Shown here: in pieces, positions 45,441 to 55,322 of the stretch
How the letters are laid out: each line of letters starts with the position of its first letter
Numbering within the stretch: position 1 is the first letter of the stretch
NCBI RefSeq assembly: GCF_000379725.1
Contig: NZ_KB903621.1
Coordinates: 62,001 to 126,000 of the forward strand
Origin: Cytophaga aurantiaca DSM 3654
Lineage (GTDB): Bacteria > Bacteroidota > Bacteroidia > Cytophagales > Cytophagaceae
Length of the DNA stretch: 64,000 bases
Direction of reading: 5' to 3'
Program-made: the position numbers and the translations under genes
Notes under the pieces: generated by a model
The model's database searches: none
What the model saw: only the letters and a program-made list of their open reading frames with translations
Told to the model about the DNA's origin: nothing

Positions 45441-46112
45441 TTATTCTTCAAACATTAATTTATACGGCAACTTACTATTTTTATGAAATTTAATGAACTG
45501 CTCTTCCTTTCCAAACCAATCACGCATATACTTTTTGTTTAAATTCGTTTGCTTATCGGATAGATAAGTATGAAAAGATGAGAAAGTCCAATCGTTAAGA
45601 TTTTTTACAAAACCATGATGAATAGGATTATTGTGTATATAACAAATCAAATGTGTCATATAATTTTCATTATTAGCTTTTTTGCGTTTAAAATTTGGAA
45701 TAAATAAGCTGCCCTTTCTGCTATACATTTTATTAAATGCTTGTGTATAGCCATTAAATAAATGACTGAACTGGCTACTTATTATGTTCGAAAACTCTCC
45801 AAGGGTTTGAAACCCTTGGAGAGTTTCTTCATCGTTGTGAGATTCATTTACCAAACCCGACTCTTTTAGTTTCTCTGTCTTCTTTAATCGCATATATTGC
45901 GATACCTCTTTTTCACTTCTAATCCTTATCATCAAATGTAAATGATTCGGCATTAAACAATATGCATAAGTTTCAGCAATCGGATAAATATAATGTGTGT
46001 ATTTTTTTAAAAAGAACCGATAATTTTCTTCGCTATTAAAAAGATTTTCAAATCCATTGGCATGTGTATATACATGATATACTGTTTCTGGTAATAGAGG
46101 TTTTTGTAACAT
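45441..46112 (-). CDS. REP-associated tyrosine transposase (RAYT)
   Basis: A 223-residue Y1 (HUH) transposase of the single-copy RAYT type. The HUH motif is MPNHLHLMI (His57, His59) and the single catalytic tyrosine is Tyr158 in CYIHNNPIHHG. An ORF extension to 46181 begins inside hairpin C and is not used. The insertion ETLQGFQTLGEF at residues 96-107 is encoded by a perfect copy of the CTCCAAGGGTTT hairpin in the variable region between HUH and Tyr helices, and it keeps the frame. The enzyme should cut and rejoin single-stranded DNA at such hairpins. Two more copies flank the gene. All known RAYT catalytic residues are present. Confidence 0.9.
   Translation of the reverse strand: MLQKPLLPETVYHVYTHANGFENLFNSEENYRFFLKKYTHYIYPIAETYAYCLMPNHLHLMIRIRSEKEVSQYMRLKKTEKLKESGLVNESHNDEETLQGFQTLGEFSNIISSQFSHLFNGYTQAFNKMYSRKGSLFIPNFKRKKANNENYMTHLICYIHNNPIHHGFVKNLNDWTFSSFHTYLSDKQTNLNKKYMRDWFGKEEQFIKFHKNSKLPYKLMFEE
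45792..45826. repeat. REP-like hairpin B inside the RAYT gene
   Basis: A perfect 17-base-arm copy of AAACTCTCCAAGGGTTT with one-base loop, internal to the RAYT coding region (codons 96-107) and identical in its arms to hairpin A. Confidence 0.95.
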
Positions 46113-46115
46113 AAA

Positions 46116-46229
46116 AGTTGCTTGTCGAAAAATGCCACTTAATAAAAATCGATTGTTGCTTATAATATCATATGTTAACAAAACTCTCCAAGGGTTTGAA
46201 ACCCTTGGAGAGTTAGTTGCTTGTCGAAA
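46116..46229. repeat. 15-bp direct repeat flanking the RAYT start and hairpin C
   Basis: AGTTGCTTGTCGAAA occurs at 46116-46130 and at 46215-46229. The pair brackets the region between the RAYT start and hairpin C and may mark a past duplication or insertion. Confidence 0.6.
46181..46214. repeat. REP-like hairpin C
   Basis: AAACTCTCCAAGGGTTT (46181-46197) with its complement to 46214, one terminal base missing. It lies in the gap between the RAYT start and the arginase stop. Confidence 0.9.
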
Positions 46230-48129: not shown

Positions 48130-48152
48130 AAAATATTTATTCTTAATAAAAT

Positions 48153-48186
48153 AAGTCAGCACACCAAATATCTAGTGTGTTGACTT
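48153..48186. terminator. Hairpin terminator overlapping ST1 stop
   Basis: AAGTCAGCACAC (48153-48164) pairs with GTGTGTTGACTT (48175-48186), with one mismatch. It sits between the convergent META gene and the end of the sulfotransferase cluster. Confidence 0.7.
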
Positions 48187-48972
48187 AAATAATTTTTTTA
48201 GTAATGATTTTGTATGGATATAACGCAGTTTTATTTTTTCCTTCAAAAGAGATTTTACCTTTAAACGATTAATTTTCTCCGCATCAATTGTATGAACTGA
48301 TCCATCGTTTGTATAACCCAATGCCTCCATTGTCTCTTGAGATTTAGTCCAAAATATTTTTTGCAAATCAACCGACAATTCTTCTTTCCATCCTCCAACA
48401 GCTCCTTTTCTGAAAAATTTCTGACTGCTTGATTTGGTTGGGTCTTCTTCTAAAAAATTGCCAAATCGTGCTTCAGCATTTTTTTGTTTTTCAAATGTTG
48501 GCAGATTTTCCCAATTGGCTTTAGGTAAATCAATCACATGTTCAATTTTAGCAAATTCTTTTTTCGGATCCGTGATCAGATCTTCAAACCGGATAAGTAT
48601 AGGATTTTCCTGCAACCAAAATTTACAATTCAAATCCCATCCCCCAAAAAAAGAGCCGTGTTCGGCTTTGGTTGCTTCTTCATAATTCTTAGCCAGATCG
48701 GAGTTTACATCTATTAAGTTTTTTCTGTGATTGGCAAGCGAGCATATCGAATCACGGCCATCTCTTACAAGATAAATCACCTGATCCGTTTTAGAATACG
48801 TTTTTAATAAAAAGGGTAAGTCATGTGTTTTTACAAATATGGTTGCAGCAGCAGATGTATTCGGACGATTTTCATTTTCTATGGATTCAATACCATAAAC
48901 ATGAAAAAGAATATTTCTAAAAAACGTATTGCCGGATCTAGGAAAAGAAGCTAACCAAACTTTTTTGCTCAT
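48172..48972 (-). CDS. Sulfotransferase 1 of the sulfated-glycan cluster
   Basis: A 266-residue PAPS-dependent sulfotransferase (Sulfotransfer_1-like). The 5'-phosphosulfate loop is WLASFPRSGNTFFRN (residues 6-20), the 3'-phosphate loop is YLVRDGRDSICSL, and the C-terminal FRKGAVGGWKEEL carries the RKGxxGxWK motif typical of soluble sulfotransferases. It transfers sulfate from PAPS to an acceptor hydroxyl. It is the last gene of the cluster, 27 bases from its paralogue, and has no signal peptide, so it acts in the cytoplasm. Confidence 0.85.
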   Translation of the reverse strand: MSKKVWLASFPRSGNTFFRNILFHVYGIESIENENRPNTSAAATIFVKTHDLPFLLKTYSKTDQVIYLVRDGRDSICSLANHRKNLIDVNSDLAKNYEEATKAEHGSFFGGWDLNCKFWLQENPILIRFEDLITDPKKEFAKIEHVIDLPKANWENLPTFEKQKNAEARFGNFLEEDPTKSSSQKFFRKGAVGGWKEELSVDLQKIFWTKSQETMEALGYTNDGSVHTIDAEKINRLKVKSLLKEKIKLRYIHTKSLLKKLFKSTH

Positions 48973-48999
48973 AAAGTATGCTCGTGTGTATTCTTAACT

Positions 49000-49839
49000 T
49001 TATTTATTTGCCCTCGATAGTTTGCGTATCATATAATCTCTAAACTCAATGCATTTGATTTGTAGTGCTCCATACTTAAGCAAAAGTTTCAGTTTGAAGT
49101 TTTCTGCTTTTTGCGATTTGATTTCATTTACTCGGGGGAAATCAATTTCATTTATGCTGCCGTCTTCTGTGTATCCTAAAAGTGCCATGATATCAGCAGA
49201 TTTTTCTAAAAAACTATTCTGACATTCAACCGGCATTTCTACTTTCCAATTTCCTATTTCACCTTTTCTAAAAAATTTCTGACTAAAGTCTCCTCCTGCG
49301 TAATTGTAATCCGGTTCTATTCCATGCTTTGCGATGCCTTGTTTTTGTTTTTCAAACGTTGGCAATTCATCCCAATTCGCTTTTGGAAAAGAGATTTTTT
49401 TTTCTAATTCAGCAAAGGTTGCCTGTGGGTTTTTAACCAAATCTTCAAACCGTACAAGTATACAATCTTCTGCAAGCCACAATCTGCAATTGTTTGCCCA
49501 GCCTCCAAAAAAGGATCCTCTATGAGCATTTGTAGCTTCAATAAAATTTTGACGCATATCTGAATCCGGTGCTATTAAATTTTTTCTTTTAAATGCCAGC
49601 GAACAAATAGAGTCTCTGCCGTCGCGAACCAGATATATGACTGTATCTTTTTTAGGGTTATATGTTTTTAATTGATAAGGTAACAGATGGGCTTTAATAA
49701 ACACCAATGATTCCTTTTTATAATTTTCATTAAGAAGTGATTCATCTTCCAAAGAATCTAAGCCATATACATGAAATAATACATTTCTAAAAAACGTGTT
49801 CCCCGACCTTGGGAAAGATGCAATCCAAATCTTCTTCAT
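49000..49839 (-). CDS. Sulfotransferase 2 of the sulfated-glycan cluster
   Basis: A 279-residue sulfotransferase and close paralogue of the previous gene, with the same architecture: IASFPRSGNTFFRN (7-20), YLVRDGRDSICSL, and FRKGEIGNWKVEM for the RKGxxGxWK motif. The C-terminal 40 residues are more basic. Its start overlaps the stop of the next upstream gene by 4 bases (ATGA), so translation is coupled. The pair probably arose by duplication and may sulfate different positions. Confidence 0.85.
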   Translation of the reverse strand: MKKIWIASFPRSGNTFFRNVLFHVYGLDSLEDESLLNENYKKESLVFIKAHLLPYQLKTYNPKKDTVIYLVRDGRDSICSLAFKRKNLIAPDSDMRQNFIEATNAHRGSFFGGWANNCRLWLAEDCILVRFEDLVKNPQATFAELEKKISFPKANWDELPTFEKQKQGIAKHGIEPDYNYAGGDFSQKFFRKGEIGNWKVEMPVECQNSFLEKSADIMALLGYTEDGSINEIDFPRVNEIKSQKAENFKLKLLLKYGALQIKCIEFRDYMIRKLSRANK

Positions 49840-50549
49840 TTCACAAGTTGAGTAATGTCTTTGTATAATTGAACATCAAGTTCATTATAACCTTCAATTA
49901 TTTTTATAATCGAATCTTCAATTGAAGTTTTTTTATTTGAAGTTTGGTTGACCGCTTCCTGATGCTGATGTTTCCAGTTTAACATCTTACTCAATTTAAG
50001 TACATCTTCAGAGTAGTTTTCAATAATGCCGATAAAATATGCAGAATGAATATCTAGCCCTTTTAAATACCGTGTCATTTTATTTCGTGCATGCGGTCTA
50101 GCCGAAAATTCCTCCAGTGTGCACGCCAAACGATTTATAAGAGACAATGCAAGTGGTTTGTTTTTATTTTCCTGAGTTAAAATTTCCAATAAATAATAAT
50201 AGTTGGAAACTACCCGTTTAACCGGATCTCTTACCCAGGTTACGATAGGTACATTCTTTAAATTCGGATACAATTCAATAAGATTCAAGTATTCAAAATG
50301 CCCATGCAAAACCTTTGTATCTTTTGGAAATAATGGTTCTGCAACTTCTTTCCCATTTATCTTAAATTTGTATTTATTTTCTTTATAATTGATATCAAAT
50401 TGAGCTACATTTTCGATACCATAATTATTGTTCAGCAAAGATCTAAATGAGGTCCCGCCTGTTTTAGGTATATGTAATGAAATTAGTTCTATGTTCAGTT
50501 CAGATACAGGAACTAATTTTTTTGAACTAAATAATTTCCAGCTTTTCAT
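49836..50549 (-). CDS. Sulfotransferase 3, Sulfotransfer_2-like
   Basis: A 237-residue protein from MKSWKLFSSKKL at 50549 (the frame extends 26 codons further into the upstream gene). The loop LISLHIPKTGGTSFRSLL has the IPKTGGTS pattern of carbohydrate sulfotransferases (Sulfotransfer_2, like heparan sulfate 2-O and chondroitin sulfotransferases), and TWVRDPVKRVVSNYYYL is the PAPS 3'-phosphate loop. It is more distant from the other two. It lies 1 base downstream of the ATPase gene. Acceptor and position are unknown. Confidence 0.75.
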   Translation of the reverse strand: MKSWKLFSSKKLVPVSELNIELISLHIPKTGGTSFRSLLNNNYGIENVAQFDINYKENKYKFKINGKEVAEPLFPKDTKVLHGHFEYLNLIELYPNLKNVPIVTWVRDPVKRVVSNYYYLLEILTQENKNKPLALSLINRLACTLEEFSARPHARNKMTRYLKGLDIHSAYFIGIIENYSEDVLKLSKMLNWKHQHQEAVNQTSNKKTSIEDSIIKIIEGYNELDVQLYKDITQLVK

Positions 50550-50550
50550 T

Positions 50551-51282
50551 TTATAAATTTTGATACAGTTCAATACCTGCTTCAACATCCTTTGCATCGT
50601 ATTGTATCGATCCTTTGTCAATAACAATAATCCGATTGCAATTTTTTCTTATTAAAGATAAATCGTGAGAAATAAATACCACTGCTTTTGAGCTCGAAAA
50701 TTCTTTCAGATACTCAAAACATTTTTTTTGAAATTGTTCATCACTTACAGACAATGCTTCGTCAATAATAATCAAGCCCGGATCAATTGCTTTAACCGCT
50801 CCAAACCTTAACTTAATTCGCATGCCTGAACTATAGGTGCCCATTGGAGAGTATACATCTTCTCCTAAGCCGGAAAATTCTTTTAATACCGGAATTCGTT
50901 TTTGTAATTCTTTTCTACCAATACCAATAATTGCACCGGTGAAAAAATAATTGTCAATGCCTGAATAAAATCTATTCAATGCCTGTGTTCCTACAAATAA
51001 AGGAATAATGGTAACGGCTGAAATTATCCGTCCGACAGTTGCATGATATGTGCCGATGATTATGCGAACCAATGTGGTTTTCCCTGAACCATTCTTTCCT
51101 AAAATGCCTATGAAATCTCCTTGATGAATTGCAAAATTAATATCTGTTAACGCCCATTTTTCGTGCTTGCGAAGTTTTTTTGTAGGTCGAAACGCAAAGA
51201 GGTCTACAAAGCCATACCACAAGCTCCAATGGAATTTTTTACAGAATTTTTTATTTACATCTTCAATACGTACCAGCTCCAT
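50551..51282 (-). CDS. Polysaccharide-export ABC ATPase (Wzt/KpsT/TagH-like)
   Basis: A 243-residue ATPase of the ABC-2 polysaccharide/polyol-phosphate export type. GILGKNGSGKTTLVRI is Walker A (about 59-74), YSSGMRIKLRFG replaces the typical LSGGQ signature as in this subfamily, and LIIIDEALSVSD is Walker B. No C-terminal carbohydrate-binding domain is present, unlike Wzt, so the protein is closer to KpsT/TagH. It shares a TAATG junction with the permease gene upstream. It powers export of a cytoplasmically assembled glycan. Confidence 0.88.
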   Translation of the reverse strand: MELVRIEDVNKKFCKKFHWSLWYGFVDLFAFRPTKKLRKHEKWALTDINFAIHQGDFIGILGKNGSGKTTLVRIIIGTYHATVGRIISAVTIIPLFVGTQALNRFYSGIDNYFFTGAIIGIGRKELQKRIPVLKEFSGLGEDVYSPMGTYSSGMRIKLRFGAVKAIDPGLIIIDEALSVSDEQFQKKCFEYLKEFSSSKAVVFISHDLSLIRKNCNRIIVIDKGSIQYDAKDVEAGIELYQNL

Positions 51283-52058
51283 TACTCAATCAGTTTTTCT
51301 ATTAAAATCCGAACGCGTTTATTGTAGACAAATAAATTTATAACAAACAGAATAATCACTATTCCCGTTATGCTGCTGAATGTTGATAGTGAAACGCTGC
51401 TGGTTCCAGTCAATAATAGATCTCTGGGTACTCCGATCAAATAGGTTAGCGGATTGAATTTGATAATTGTGTGTACAATTGCTGAATCAAATTTAGGAGA
51501 ATAGATAATGGGAGTTAAAAACAATAAGACTTTATTAAATTCTTTTCCCAGAATATATACGTCTTCACTTACTACTTCAATCATGGATATAAATATTCCG
51601 ATTGAAAAACATAACATCGCAAGTGGTATCGTTGAGATCAGAAATGTGCCGATGTTCAATGATACATCCAGAAAAATAGCAATGATCATCATGTTAATGA
51701 ACCCTGAAATAAAAAAGCGTACCAATATTAAAACAAACTTAGCTGTTATCACCGTAAGCACCGGTAAAAAGCCTTGTGTGTGTAATCTTATGGAAGAAGA
51801 AATAGAGTTTCCCAATAAATCATATGATTGTGCGTACAATTGCCAAAGTAACGTTCCGATTAAAATATATGCTGTATAATTAATATCTAATTGTCCGGGA
51901 TTAAGTAAGCCGCTTTTCTGTAAAAATATCCAGATGATGGATTGAATTAACGGGAGAAATAAAATCCATGCAACTCCAATAAAAGACCTTTTATAAATCT
52001 GAGTGAACTCTATTTTTATTAATTCGAAAAACAAATATTTGTTTTTTATAAACTTCAT
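51282..52058 (-). CDS. Polysaccharide-export ABC permease (Wzm/KpsM/TagG-like)
   Basis: A 258-residue ABC-2-type permease with six predicted spans. Family features are YKRSFIGVAWILFLPLIQSIIW near the N terminus, the FISTIPLAMLCFSIGIFISM loop region, and LTPIIYSPKFDSAIVHTIIKFNPLTYLI with the conserved Pro-rich end. It is coupled to the ATPase gene by a 1-base overlap and starts 7 bases after the fusion gene stop. Together they should form a half-transporter pair of the glycan exporter in the inner membrane. Confidence 0.88.
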   Translation of the reverse strand: MKFIKNKYLFFELIKIEFTQIYKRSFIGVAWILFLPLIQSIIWIFLQKSGLLNPGQLDINYTAYILIGTLLWQLYAQSYDLLGNSISSSIRLHTQGFLPVLTVITAKFVLILVRFFISGFINMMIIAIFLDVSLNIGTFLISTIPLAMLCFSIGIFISMIEVVSEDVYILGKEFNKVLLFLTPIIYSPKFDSAIVHTIIKFNPLTYLIGVPRDLLLTGTSSVSLSTFSSITGIVIILFVINLFVYNKRVRILIEKLIE

Positions 52059-52065
52059 TTTTAAT

Positions 52066-54111
52066 CTAGAGTTTACTTAACGTTTCAATCCGGTTCTTAT
52101 ACAGCTCTAATGTTTGTATTGCTGTCTTTTGCCAATGAAAATTATTTGACTGTATTAATGCTTGTAGTGATTTTTTCCTGCGTTCATCTTTATTACTGGA
52201 AACGCCAATAATTGCAATACAAATTTCATCGATATCTTCACTATCAACCGGATAACCTGAGTCTCCTACGACTTCTATCATAGAACTGTTATTGCCAAAT
52301 ATAACAGGGGTTTTACAAGACATTGCTTCCAGAATCGGTAAGCCAAAGCCTTCGTAATGGGAAATATAGATCAGTGCCAATGCTTCTCTATATAGCCAAG
52401 GTAAAGAATCTTCTGGCATAAATCCAGTAAAAATAATTCTGCTTGAAATATTTTTTATCTCCGGTAATACCTCTTTTAATTTCCAGCCTTGTTTTCCAAC
52501 AATTACAAAATATACGTTATTTGGCAAAAATGGAATTGCTTTTTGAAATCCAAGGATCGCATTTTTTAAATTCTTTCGTGGCTCCAGTGTAGAGACAGAA
52601 AGAAAAAATTCATCCGTCTTTTTTAATCCAACTTCGGCACGTATGGTGTCTTTCCAGTACGTACTTTCCAGCGGACAAAATACGGTATGGTCTGCCGCTT
52701 CGGGGATCATGTCCAAATGCTGGTCTGATGAAAAACGATTTGTGAAATCATTTTTTGTACTTTGTGAAATAGAAAAAAATGCAGCATTCTGTTTCATGCT
52801 CAACTCCAGGCCATAGTTGGCTAATGCGATGTTATCAATCTGATGATATTGGGGATGCGATAAATGTGTCAGATCATGAATCGTTATCAGTGCCTTCTCT
52901 TTTGCCTGCAATATAAATTCTGCATGTTGCAGTAAGGGTATATGAACAAGGTCATATTCTTTGGATGAAAAAACTGCATGCTTATCAAACAAATTCCCAG
53001 AGGTATTCATTTTTTGAGAAAGAAATGTATACGCTTTATCTTTAAAAACTTTTGAGTTATTGATGCACTTCGCTTTAAAACGTTTGTATTGCAAACCAAC
53101 CAATAAATAATTTTCGGCCGACAACGCAAAGCCCAATACAGATTTCATTTGGGATGCAACAGCTGTCTTTAATTTAGAGAATTTGTTTTTTTCACCTGCA
53201 ACCAAATTTAAATAAGGGCTTATCTCAAATTCATTGATGGATACATATCTGTTCGAATCAAAAATCTGTATATCCCAGACCGGGTTATTTCGTGTGATTT
53301 CTTTTATCGCTTTTATCAACTCAACTACATATCTTTTTGTGCCATCGTTATAAGGCATACATAGTTTAGATGATTCGATTAATATCTTGTATTTTTTTGT
53401 GTTGGAATGATTGAATCCAAGTTTTTGATGTATAGCAGGATAATATTCAGCCATTGAAAGTTGTTTCAGCTCTTCGTAGTTGTAATACGATAGCTTAACC
53501 AATGCGCGGGCATGATATTTAATGAATAAGGCTTGCTGATATGCATTTAAAGATTCCTGCCATATTGCCGGAATAAGAATGCCTTCTGCTGTTCTGCTTT
53601 TTTCAGTTGATCGTATATGATCTCCATGTAAAACCGGATCGTATATATAATCCTCTAAAGAAACCGTATCTGTGTATGGAACATTTATAAAATCAGAGAG
53701 CCGTTTCATTTCTCTGGGCAAATTCTCAATCAGATCTTCAAACCGAATGATGATATCTGCTTTATCGCTCCATGCTTCTACATGTTTGGACCAGCCTCTG
53801 AAATGACTTCCTTTATCAGCAACAATCGCTTCTTCTATATTACTTGCAAGAGATGTGCTTTGTGTAATTGTATTGTATCTGAAATATGCATTATTTGCTA
53901 CGCAATCGCGTCCATCGCGAACAAGCAAAATGACTTTTCTATTTTGTAGTACAGTTTCAGGAAGATCTTTGGGGTGTTGTTGCGTTTTAACTAATAATGC
54001 CTGGGCTATATTTTCATCTTTAAATAGAACCGGTTCTATTTTAAATAATTGCTTTAGCAAATTACTTACATACGTATCTCCTGAGCCAGGATATAAAGCT
54101 AAAAGAAACAT
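52066..54111 (-). CDS. Sulfotransferase-GT4 glycosyltransferase fusion
   Basis: A 681-residue fusion. Residues 1 to about 205 are sulfotransferase-like: LALYPGSGDTYVSNLL for the P-loop (7-19) and VRDGRDCVANNAYF for the 3'-phosphate loop (VRDGRD at 64-69), but the RKGxxGxWK motif of its neighbours is absent. Residues about 240-681 form a GT-B glycosyltransferase of family 4, with the C-terminal donor domain STLEPRKNLKNAILGF, IFTGFMPEDSLPWLY and the E-x7-E motif EGFGLPILE (587-595). The single chain could couple sugar addition with sulfation. It is the first gene of the cluster. Such fusions are unusual in my knowledge. Confidence 0.8.
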   Translation of the reverse strand: MFLLALYPGSGDTYVSNLLKQLFKIEPVLFKDENIAQALLVKTQQHPKDLPETVLQNRKVILLVRDGRDCVANNAYFRYNTITQSTSLASNIEEAIVADKGSHFRGWSKHVEAWSDKADIIIRFEDLIENLPREMKRLSDFINVPYTDTVSLEDYIYDPVLHGDHIRSTEKSRTAEGILIPAIWQESLNAYQQALFIKYHARALVKLSYYNYEELKQLSMAEYYPAIHQKLGFNHSNTKKYKILIESSKLCMPYNDGTKRYVVELIKAIKEITRNNPVWDIQIFDSNRYVSINEFEISPYLNLVAGEKNKFSKLKTAVASQMKSVLGFALSAENYLLVGLQYKRFKAKCINNSKVFKDKAYTFLSQKMNTSGNLFDKHAVFSSKEYDLVHIPLLQHAEFILQAKEKALITIHDLTHLSHPQYHQIDNIALANYGLELSMKQNAAFFSISQSTKNDFTNRFSSDQHLDMIPEAADHTVFCPLESTYWKDTIRAEVGLKKTDEFFLSVSTLEPRKNLKNAILGFQKAIPFLPNNVYFVIVGKQGWKLKEVLPEIKNISSRIIFTGFMPEDSLPWLYREALALIYISHYEGFGLPILEAMSCKTPVIFGNNSSMIEVVGDSGYPVDSEDIDEICIAIIGVSSNKDERRKKSLQALIQSNNFHWQKTAIQTLELYKNRIETLSKL

Positions 54112-54195
54112 ATTGGCCTATTAAAACATCCGTTTAAAGTTACTACAAATAATTTCTGTACAAAATCTGTATTGTCCATTAGTGGATAAATTAAT

Positions 54196-54229
54196 AAAAA
54201 AACCTCTCCGTAAACGAAGAGGTTTTTTT
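54196..54229. terminator. Hairpin terminator
   Basis: AAAAAAACCTCT (54196-54207) pairs with AGAGGTTTTTTT (54218-54229). It lies just past the stop of the lipoprotein gene at 54246 on the minus strand. Confidence 0.75.
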
Positions 54230-54245
54230 ATTAAGATAGAATTGT

Positions 54246-55322
54246 TTAATAAGGTTGGAAAGCAGTCACAGAGTATATACTCGTTCCGCTATCATTCATT
54301 AATGCAAAATTCAATTTGTAACCATCTGAATCACACGTGCCATCAAATATAGAGCTTCCTATTGCATCTGTTTTATAGCCCGCTTCAGCAGTCCAATAAT
54401 ATTTTGTATATCCCAACAACACATATGCAGGTTTAGCTGTATATGAAACATATTCAACCTTGCCTTGTTTTAACACATACGGACCAGCATAAGAAGAACC
54501 ACAATTAGACCAGATGAATGGAGTGCTGATGTTACAAACAAATTTTTCATTGTCTATATTTAATCCCAACTCACCTACATAATCGAATGTTGCCGTTGAT
54601 GTTGTTGTCAAATAGGTTGAAGCTGCAAAGCTTGTATCTCCTTCAAGTTTGAATGTTATACCTGTAGAAGTTCCTGGTGTATTCTGGAATGTTCTTTTGC
54701 GGAAAATTTTCCATGAACGTATAACCGGTGATGCACCAAGTGTATCGTAGCTTAACGTAAGATCACCACGCACTTTATGTATGATCTCTGCATTCGGCGT
54801 ACTTGTAAATAAACCGATGATAGAACCACCGCTGGTATTGGTTATATATGTAGTACCTTCATATGTTACGGATTGATTTGAATTTGTATATAGAACTTTA
54901 TACTTATTGAATACTACCTGTAACTTAGAACCTTGATCTGAAAAATAGGTTCCGTTAACAAGAGTTACATCAATACTGCCGCTTAATACTCGATATGGCG
55001 TGCAGTTGGAGCCACTTTGAGAATAGTCAATAGAGAAATTTTTAGAATTGCTATTCAAATTGAATGTTACTTTACCGCAAGGAAGTATTGCAGTTGAAGT
55101 AGTACGTAAATTTGAACTTGTTCGCATGCCTGAAGCATCTGCATATTCCTGAGAGTTATAAACTTTTTCTATATCACTGCTTACTCTATCCAATTCACTT
55201 CTTCCACTTGCATCATCGGCTTTGGTTCGGCCTTCATATGTTGGCGGCACTTCATCTGCCTTTTTACATCCTATCAACGAAAAAGTCATACCGATTAAGA
55301 ACGTATAAATAATTCTTTTCAT
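54246..55322 (-). CDS. Lipoprotein of unknown function
   Basis: A 358-residue lipoprotein; FSLIGC is the lipobox (Cys19) and KKADEVPPTYEGRTK forms a flexible tether. The mature domain is all-beta and Ser/Thr/Tyr-rich, with 4-5 Cys late in the sequence (near residues 265-275 and 325-330). No family is recognised. It is monocistronic with a 245-base upstream gap. Similar lipoproteins in Bacteroidota are usually surface-exposed. Confidence 0.7.
   Translation of the reverse strand: MKRIIYTFLIGMTFSLIGCKKADEVPPTYEGRTKADDASGRSELDRVSSDIEKVYNSQEYADASGMRTSSNLRTTSTAILPCGKVTFNLNSNSKNFSIDYSQSGSNCTPYRVLSGSIDVTLVNGTYFSDQGSKLQVVFNKYKVLYTNSNQSVTYEGTTYITNTSGGSIIGLFTSTPNAEIIHKVRGDLTLSYDTLGASPVIRSWKIFRKRTFQNTPGTSTGITFKLEGDTSFAASTYLTTTSTATFDYVGELGLNIDNEKFVCNISTPFIWSNCGSSYAGPYVLKQGKVEYVSYTAKPAYVLLGYTKYYWTAEAGYKTDAIGSSIFDGTCDSDGYKLNFALMNDSGTSIYSVTAFQPY

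Follow-up and report, generated by a model that had tools for sequence, protein, structure and literature searches.

What can six genes accomplish when four of their products contain a sulfotransferase (ST) domain, one of these domains is joined to a glycosyltransferase (GT), and the remaining two products form an exporter? This question is raised by a 64,000-nucleotide stretch of the Cytophaga aurantiaca DSM 3654 genome (contig NZ_KB903621.1, positions 62,001 to 126,000; hereafter the window), in which six minus-strand genes at window positions 48172-54111 are transcribed in the order fusion protein, permease, ATPase, ST-C, ST-B, and ST-A. An earlier note on this DNA had described a compact module that builds, sulfates, and exports a surface polysaccharide or glycolipid. 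We consider it likely that the six genes form a horizontally acquired operon whose products sulfate a glycan or glycolipid in the cytoplasm and then move it across the inner membrane by ATP-binding cassette (ABC) export.

Stand-alone sulfotransferases

With a cutoff of 22 bits, Sulfotransfer_1 (PF00685) was matched by ST-A (75 bits), ST-B (56.7 bits), and the fusion protein (39.1 bits). In Sulfotransfer_1 enzymes, the motifs for 3'-phosphoadenosine 5'-phosphosulfate (PAPS) comprise a basic residue in the first loop, the histidine of the KTH motif, and RKGxxGxWK. ST-A and ST-B each hold all three together with VRDGRD, although the KTH motif reads KAH in ST-B; the first loop of ST-B aligns with that of Teg14, and its RKG motif with that of SULT1C2. 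The two proteins share 54% identity and are sisters in the tree (support, 100/100), which suggests that the pair arose by duplication.

ST-C belongs to Sulfotransfer_2 (PF03567; 33.5 bits against a cutoff of 22) and carries the PAPS-loop motifs HIPKTGGTS and WVRDPVKRVVS. Residues K29, R107, and S115 are invariant across 31 aligned sequences (the window protein and 30 of the 32 relatives listed). The motifs reported in the earlier note were thus confirmed: VRDGRDSICSL is present in ST-A and ST-B, TWVRDPVKRVVS in ST-C, and RKGxxGxWK in ST-A and ST-B only. All three stand-alone enzymes retain PAPS motifs, and the reading of the operon as a whole stands on this point.

The predicted model of ST-C (predicted local distance difference test score, 89; predicted template modeling score, 0.86) was best matched by VIA-align to heparan-sulfate 2-O-sulfotransferase (3f5f_A; Z, 13.7; root mean square deviation [rmsd], 3.7; 198 residues aligned), and it also matched heparan-sulfate 6-O-sulfotransferase (Z, 12.7; rmsd, 4.3; 184 aligned). 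The top 18 structural matches were all heparan-sulfate 2-O-, 6-O-, N-, and 3-O-sulfotransferases. Ranked below them were the bacterial sulfotransferase 3rnl (Z, 10.8) and further, mostly small-molecule sulfotransferases (Z of ≤10). Foldseek matches were weak, with template modeling scores of ≤0.50 among the matches listed. The modeled fold favors a sugar as the acceptor of ST-C, a shared fold being no proof of this.

A glycosyltransferase fused to a probably inactive sulfotransferase

The fusion protein matches both Sulfotransfer_1 (7e-10) and Glycos_transf_1 (1e-27) in Pfam. A GT-B fold and an EX7E motif are hallmarks of glycosyltransferase family 4 (GT4), and the GT half is predicted to retain the fold and the active-site motifs: it contains EPRKN and EGFGLPILE at 587, in which EX7E is kept, and its best structural match is 6tvp_A (Z, 34.1; rmsd, 3.0; 341 residues aligned). 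The structural matches listed for the fusion are matches to the GT half and describe the fold of that half, not of the ST half.

The arginine, histidine, and RKG residues of Sulfotransfer_1 enzymes have catalytic roles. In the ST half of the window fusion, VRDGRD is retained, while the other three motifs are gone (PGSGDT in the first loop, KTQ, and no RKG). By residue, Gly9 replaces Arg, Gln44 replaces His, and Ala175 replaces Arg; Gly177 alone is retained. In an alignment of 42 fusions, Arg9, His44, Arg175, and Gly177 (window numbering) are kept in 40 of the 41 others. The exception, at locus L158 (genome G773), shows Gln, Asn, Arg, and Pro at these columns, the aligned Arg lying within YRHPK, and has no RKG. 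Part of this conservation is by construction, in that two peptide patterns, PRSGNTFF among them, served as seeds for the scan loci, which affects the first motif in 35 fusions. The His and RKG columns were unseeded, and the intact fusions L153 to L157, found by profile, keep the first motif free of that bias.

Taken together, the lost residues indicate that the ST half of the window fusion is probably catalytically dead. The earlier count of four sulfotransferase domains is correct by Pfam, but the likely number of competent sulfotransferases is three, not four, given the loss of diagnostic residues in the fusion. Sulfotransfer_1 is still matched in the window fusion (see above) and in L158 (30.7 bits). 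In both, the ST half remains in frame, with a G-W pair and an FED/YED-L-I stretch, and we infer that it serves in a noncatalytic binding role.

The tree of GT halves places L158 as sister to the intact L090 (100/100), and the branches starred in it force two losses; on this topology, the loss in L158 would be independent of that in the window, whose own place is unsure owing to a long branch. The ST-half branch of the window measures 5 changes per column versus a median end branch of 0.31, and the GT-half branch measures 1.8 and 1.7 in two trees versus medians of 0.51 and 0.43. The second decayed fusion (L158:9967-11949) lies in a locus that also contains an ST-C homologue, a 749-aa weakly GT4- or fusion-like protein, and two MBOAT-like genes.

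The exporter pair

The ATPase and permease genes are adjacent, and their nearest characterized members are of the TarGH/Wzm-Wzt type. The solved relatives of the ATPase were, in order, TagH (9cfl_B; 5.6e-39), 6amx_A (9.3e-39; labeled ABC transporter only, which we take to be a Wzt), RfbE (9qfx_C; 8.7e-34), TarH, and 8tsi (presumably KpsT). TarG (6jbh_C; 2.8e-12) was the first of three solved matches to the permease. A drug or lipid A exporter was considered and rejected: the DrrA model scored 82 bits against 147 for TagH, and the nearest solved relatives are of the TagH/TarGH and RfbE types. The exporter class assigned in the earlier note is therefore upheld, as is its statement that the ATPase lacks a carbohydrate-binding domain, since this 243-aa protein has no Wzt_C match in Pfam. 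In the related loci described below, ATPases encoded beside the fusion with an ABC-2 pair are 246 to 279 aa long in 16 of 17 cases, the 17th (L076) being 404 aa. At L100, a related locus without the fusion, the ATPase bears Wzt_C; thus, the exporter family can take polysaccharides.

Operon structure and arrival in the genome

The coordinates and content of the six minus-strand genes (Table 1) agree with the earlier note by open reading frame (ORF) and Pfam analysis, as do the short junctions that it described. The mechanical ORF of ST-C starts at a TTG at 50627, within the ATPase gene; an ATG at 50549, one base past the ATPase stop, is the likelier start. With this start, the fusion and permease genes are separated by 7 bp, the permease and ATPase genes overlap by 1 base, and ATPase and ST-C are 1 bp apart. 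ST-C and ST-B overlap by 4 bases, and 27 bp separate ST-B from ST-A. The 134-nucleotide gap upstream of the fusion, bordered on its far side by a lipoprotein gene, holds a hairpin of -33 kcal/mol, a stability reached by 0 of 200 shuffled sequences, and the gene past ST-A is convergent to the operon. Because of this strong hairpin upstream and the convergent gene downstream, the six genes look like one bounded unit.

Table 1. Coordinates of the operon genes and cassette features, in window positions
Feature	Position	Strand	Remarks
Fusion protein, 681 aa	52066..54111	-	ST half ~1-240; GT4 half ~241-681
ABC-2 permease, TarG-like	51282..52058	-	ABC2_membrane 2e-8; TarG 6jbh_C 2.8e-12
ABC ATPase, TagH/RfbE kind, 243 aa	50551..51282	-	ABC_tran; TagH 9cfl_B 5.6e-39; Walker A GKNGSGKT
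ST-C, Sulfotransfer_2	49836..50549	-	PF03567 6e-8; 237 aa counted from ATG at 50549
ST-B, Sulfotransfer_1, motifs intact	49000..49839	-	Pfam E=3e-15
ST-A, Sulfotransfer_1, motifs intact	48172..48972	-	Pfam E=8e-21
Predicted extent of inserted cassette	48130..54245	.	Interval between convergent META lipoprotein gene and lipoprotein gene 54246-55322
Intergenic hairpin at upstream cassette edge, flanked by A and T runs	54112..54245	.	Folding, z -4.86

In the congeners G002 and G003, the same convergent neighbors lie 67 and 88 bp apart, versus 6,116 bp in the window, and the surrounding order (arginase, META, lipoprotein gene, and DSBA- and LigB-type genes) is as in the window. An inverted repeat is seen by eye in all three gaps; folding was computed for the window gap alone. 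The empty site in two congeners points to arrival of the operon as one cassette. No match listed in 18 other genomes of the family covers the ST half of the fusion, and we accordingly rejected a family-wide trait. Because of the empty sites and this absence, a gain in the window lineage is favored over repeated loss, and the operon appears, from these genome comparisons, to have been horizontally acquired as one piece. G+C content is 31 to 35% in the operon genes versus 36 to 42% in the five nearby genes measured.

Plasmid or phage cargo was also rejected for the public records searched, in which ST-B had no protein match (50,697 phage and 72,556 plasmid records). No plasmid match to the fusion covers 80% of it, and the best 10 of 315 match by the GT half only. 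Elsewhere in the window, an IS200-like (Y1) transposase-type gene (45441-46181; 22 bits versus a cutoff of 23) sits between the genes for a ModF-like ATPase and arginase; at this place, congener G002 lacks an ORF of such a size.

Recurrence of the fusion in other genomes

Scanning the GTDB genome collection with ST-B and ST-A yielded 73 loci, 34 of which hold a Sulfotransfer_1-GT4 fusion (35 proteins); a first scan of the collection, queried with the fusion itself, had returned no relative. By title, 32 of the 34 fusion loci belong to Bacteroidota groups, one to Planctomycetaceae (L102), and one to a "bacterium" (L125). ST-C homologues occur in 22 of these loci, and at least two in 18. Multi-sulfotransferase clusters are thus common in this group, and the several sulfotransferases of the window, whose ratio to glycosyltransferases the earlier note called unusual, are no peculiarity. 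An ABC-2 permease and ATPase were found in the retrieved DNA of 17 loci, a second GT4 directly downstream of the fusion in 19, and a large membrane protein, F5, in 18. These partner counts are lower bounds, several contigs being short.

Nine of the 34 loci (L063, L065, L066, L068, L072, L075, L080, L090, and L092) contain an unbroken same-strand run of permease, ATPase, one or more sulfotransferases, and fusion. The arrangement nearest to that of the window is found in L092, a Chitinophaga-titled metagenome-assembled genome (MAG), with the order permease, ATPase, ST-C, stand-alone sulfotransferase, fusion, and GT4. The window GT half pairs with that of L092 at 85/79 in one tree, the pairing being unresolved in another, and falls at 96/96 in a group whose other members are 34 fusions and a single stand-alone GT. 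Ten other loci (175 ORFs in 183 kb) served as a weak control and gave no permease, ST-C, or ST-A/B match, an ATPase match in four, and a GT match in one; eight of these loci were from this genome, some of them retrieved on account of further sulfotransferase or GT genes, and the remaining two came from congeners. On this comparison, the window operon appears to belong, with its genes in a rearranged order, to a module that recurs among genomes.

In a class-level sample of 395 genomes, 26 matched at 1e-10 and 9 (the present genome included) had a frame of >600 aa. Among the eight others, ST-C homologues were nearby in three and an ABC-2 pair in two; the two with both partners are already among the 73 scan loci. 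The class sample partly depends on the scan, as L135 and L136 duplicate L063 and L071, and L151 and L152 duplicate L069 and L074; moreover, 14 of 36 fusion ST halves went into search profile A3. In the order-level sample, the ST half of the fusion matched 5 of 390 genomes, namely the present one and four more in which the matching frames are stand-alone and 261 to 291 aa long. At the phylum level, ST-B matched 7 of 395 genomes (own included), with two fusion-sized frames, one of them L071. The fusion trait is rare and patchy.

The Rhodohalobacter sulfatireducens protein at L071 (9998-12139; 713 aa) has a good sulfotransferase half, the rest being only weakly GT4-like. It is among the 36 fusions by length and, given its weak GT match, was left out of the 34-locus count and the 42-fusion alignment.

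PAPS supply

The earlier note took PAPS to be the donor, and PAPS synthesis is encoded in the genome. Contig C42 holds, in a row, genes for a GTP_EFTU-domain protein, a PAPS_reduct-domain protein, and adenosine 5'-phosphosulfate (APS) kinase, with a divergent gene for an Inositol_P-family protein alongside. By our own naming, these would be a CysN-type GTPase, a CysD-type protein, and, for the last, a CysQ-type phosphatase. PAPS synthesis genes within the cluster have been called a hallmark of sulfated capsule clusters (PMC11641403; here and below, published systems are compared from excerpts of the cited papers). The present PAPS genes lie on C42 and the operon on C2, so that this hallmark is absent. 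In the order-level relatives L044 and L046, PAPS genes stand beside other sulfotransferase/glycan clusters. Four other sulfotransferase-like genes were noted in the genome (C3:7604-8395, C1:304052-304591, C24:127257-127625, and C3:133114-133749), none of them part of an operon like this one as far as the surrounding sequence was read.

Proposed function and alternatives

We propose that the GT4 half of the fusion would lengthen an acceptor made by genes elsewhere, that ST-A, ST-B, and ST-C would add sulfate from PAPS made by the C42-encoded enzymes, and that the TarGH-like ABC pair would export the product. The ST half of the fusion, probably no longer catalytic, would have a structural role or bind partner proteins, the activity that it once had now being supplied by ST-A/ST-B.

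Several observations weigh against this proposal. Its computed basis consists of the genes present, the motifs kept or lost, the class of the exporter, the empty site, and module recurrence, with functions inferred from homology. The ABC-2 O-antigen cluster of Aeromonas salmonicida A450 contains a sulfotransferase-domain gene, although the O-antigen of this strain is not known to carry sulfate (PMC4483657); therefore, gene content does not prove sulfation. In that cluster, the ABC-2 export gene adjoins the sulfotransferase-domain gene, as in the window, but this gene is single and no fusion is mentioned in the excerpted text. The ATPase scored well below the cutoffs of the TagH equivalog (NF010066; 147.5 versus 320 bits) and the NCBIfam model of galactan Wzt (136.3 versus 400 bits). 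The ABC pair belongs to two lineages across the loci, and its cargo therefore need not match from one locus to another. APS kinase is also encoded in congeners without the operon, and PAPS supply is therefore not operon specific; among the 34 fusion loci, PAPS genes were present in the retrieved DNA of only one (L076), where the same three gene types precede the module. No ST-C or ABC-2 match was found in the retrieved DNA of L153 to L157 (five of the eight class-sample fusion genomes), in single-sequence searches that could miss distant permeases and with only 3.6 kb upstream in L156. The fusion would therefore be a stable core with the exporter as a frequent but not constant partner, and it may be able to act without ST-C and an exporter. 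Finally, Pfam and NCBIfam profiles matched no initiating transferase, sugar-nucleotide enzyme, or outer-membrane export family among the operon proteins. Of the claim that the operon builds, sulfates, and exports its product, sulfation and export fit the predicted gene content, but the operon could not build a glycan alone; a cassette for sulfation and export is the better reading.

A narrower possibility, conceivable but not one we favor, is that the product is no polysaccharide but a sulfated glycolipid or another small sulfated glycoside resembling a Nod factor, which the cassette would make and export through one glycosyl transfer, two or three sulfations, and a short-cargo ABC pair. The operon has a single GT, its ATPase leaves no room for a carbohydrate-binding tail (nor do 16 of the 17 ATPases in fusion loci with an ABC-2 pair), and related loci hold acyl-activating ligases, carrier proteins, a lipid A-type acyltransferase, and MBOAT genes, which suggest acylated products. 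Opposing this are the NodI equivalog score (TIGR01288; 63.8 bits versus a cutoff of 424), the lack of acyl or lipid genes in the operon, and the fold of ST-C, which is nearest to enzymes acting on polysaccharide chains. We regard it as unlikely that the operon merely tailors a surface polysaccharide or O-glycan exported by another system while the ABC pair carries an unrelated or accessory substrate. Such a role would account for the missing backbone biosynthesis genes, for the five class-sample genomes in which a fusion has no ABC-2 match nearby, and for the differing exporter types, but it sits poorly with the tight permease/ATPase/ST-C junctions and with the same-strand run in 9 of 34 loci. 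These two alternatives overlap in part with our proposal, in which polymer and glycolipid are covered alike.

Far less probable is a decaying island that makes nothing, with the lost fusion motifs marking the onset of functional loss. The motif loss and very long branch of the fusion ST half (5 versus a median of 0.31) are what such decay would leave; however, all six frames are open, ST-A, ST-B, ST-C, and the GT half keep their motifs, and a dead half with a similar loss stays in frame in a second lineage. Cytoplasmic sulfation followed by ABC export thus remains the reading we prefer.

Comparison with known systems

Among solved structures, those of TarGH and Wzm-Wzt are nearest to the window ATPase and permease, although the window proteins fall below equivalog cutoffs, have no Wzt carbohydrate-binding domain, and have no outer-membrane partner in the operon. 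ST-C is alike in fold to heparan-sulfate 2-O- and 6-O-sulfotransferases but is bacterial and stand-alone, with 16 to 22% identity in the four top structural alignments. NodIJ exports the Nod factor. Together with NodH, the sulfotransferase of the rhizobial Nod factor (PMC11625862), it offers a parallel in combining a sulfotransferase with ABC-2 export of a short glycolipid; the window ATPase is far under the NodI cutoff, however, and no Nod-type synthase genes occur in the window operon.

Chemically characterized, ABC-exported sulfated capsules are described for Vibrio sp. KMM 8419 (PMC11641403) and Cobetia marina KMM 1449 (PMC11766843). Their clusters share with the window sulfotransferases, glycosyltransferases, ABC export genes, and PAPS supply. 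The Vibrio cluster comprises 80 genes and the Cobetia cluster about 70, and both include sugar-nucleotide genes, PAPS genes, and Kps components for export, whereas the window operon has six genes and none of those. The excerpts mention no sulfotransferase-GT4 fusion such as that of the window for either cluster. In Pontiella sulfatireligans, a sulfated exopolymer was measured and a putative sulfated-glycosaminoglycan cluster is reported (PMC7356697). This cluster likewise sets a bacterial sulfotransferase among GT2/GT4 genes, but it comes from another phylum and has one sulfotransferase, and its figure legend names no fusion or ABC pair.

The terms "fusion," "bifunctional," and "Bacteroid" do not occur in the main text of a 2024 review of polysaccharide sulfotransferases (PMC11625862). 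We found no description of the fusion, its recurrence in Bacteroidota, or the repeated pseudo-enzyme decay in searches of an open-access library, most subscription papers lying outside this scope. ABC-exported sulfated capsules are already known, while the sulfotransferase-GT4 fusion module is apparently undescribed.

Other families in related loci

Genes resembling a pyrrole-acyl pathway were observed at L062, L063, L070, L085, L095, and L133, of which L095 has a stand-alone sulfotransferase in place of the fusion. An acyl-CoA dehydrogenase-like gene is found in all six, an adenylation ligase and a flavin halogenase-like gene in five each, and an 84-aa carrier protein in three. Profiles were run on the L062 and L070 members only; the L062 dehydrogenase was nearest the model of the prolyl-carrier dehydrogenase PigA (368 bits versus a cutoff of 500). 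Judging from these genes, the glycan of the six loci may bear a (halo)pyrrole acyl group. In five Bacteroidales-type MAGs (L065, L066, L072, L075, and L080), the genes after the fusion encode an adenylation ligase of about 600 aa, to which a carrier domain is fused in L066, and a further protein, which matches Lip_A_acyltrans in L066. Given the acylation genes in related loci, the product may be a glycolipid.

F5 (e.g., L062:13169-15691) is 813 to 874 aa long where complete-looking. It has no Pfam match in L062 and a GDSL match just under the cutoff in L092; by eye, it has MBOAT-like and SGNH-like parts. No F5 homologue was found in the genome of the window, in a search without a positive control, so that the empty answer shows nothing. 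For the GT4 encoded downstream of the fusion in related loci, a homologue elsewhere in this genome was indistinguishable from general GT4s. A second membrane protein, F8 (L070:12064-15231 and relatives; 997 to 1147 aa where complete-looking), has no Pfam match in L070, often adjoins a GT2 and a GT4, and by eye resembles a GT-C type transferase.

Significance

Saprospiraceae- or Lewinella-type titles account for 14 of the 34 fusion loci, and this group includes sludge bacteria. This taxonomy, together with "SlAct" in the names of L076 and L079, which we read as activated sludge, hints at a link between the fusion module and granular sludge. Excerpts of one study report sulfated glycoconjugates in all of its granular-sludge matrices and few matches in a search for known sulfotransferases; according to its authors, bacterial pathways for sulfated glycoconjugates are not well known (PMC10483923).

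We tentatively suggest, with less confidence than we place in the function of the operon itself, that the fusions constitute a widespread and undescribed sulfated-glycan machine of Bacteroidota that couples elongation to sulfation within a single polypeptide. The window would then hold a derived form, repeated independently in a second lineage, in which a pseudo-enzyme holds the glycosyltransferase to separate sulfotransferases. The lost-motif fusion poses the question of why a dead sulfotransferase half is kept on a glycosyltransferase in two separate lineages. The fusion offers a concrete search query, and the six genes are a minimal set that can be deleted or moved. If the suggestion is true, some of the organisms that produce the sulfated glycoconjugates of granular sludge could belong to the carriers of this fusion class.

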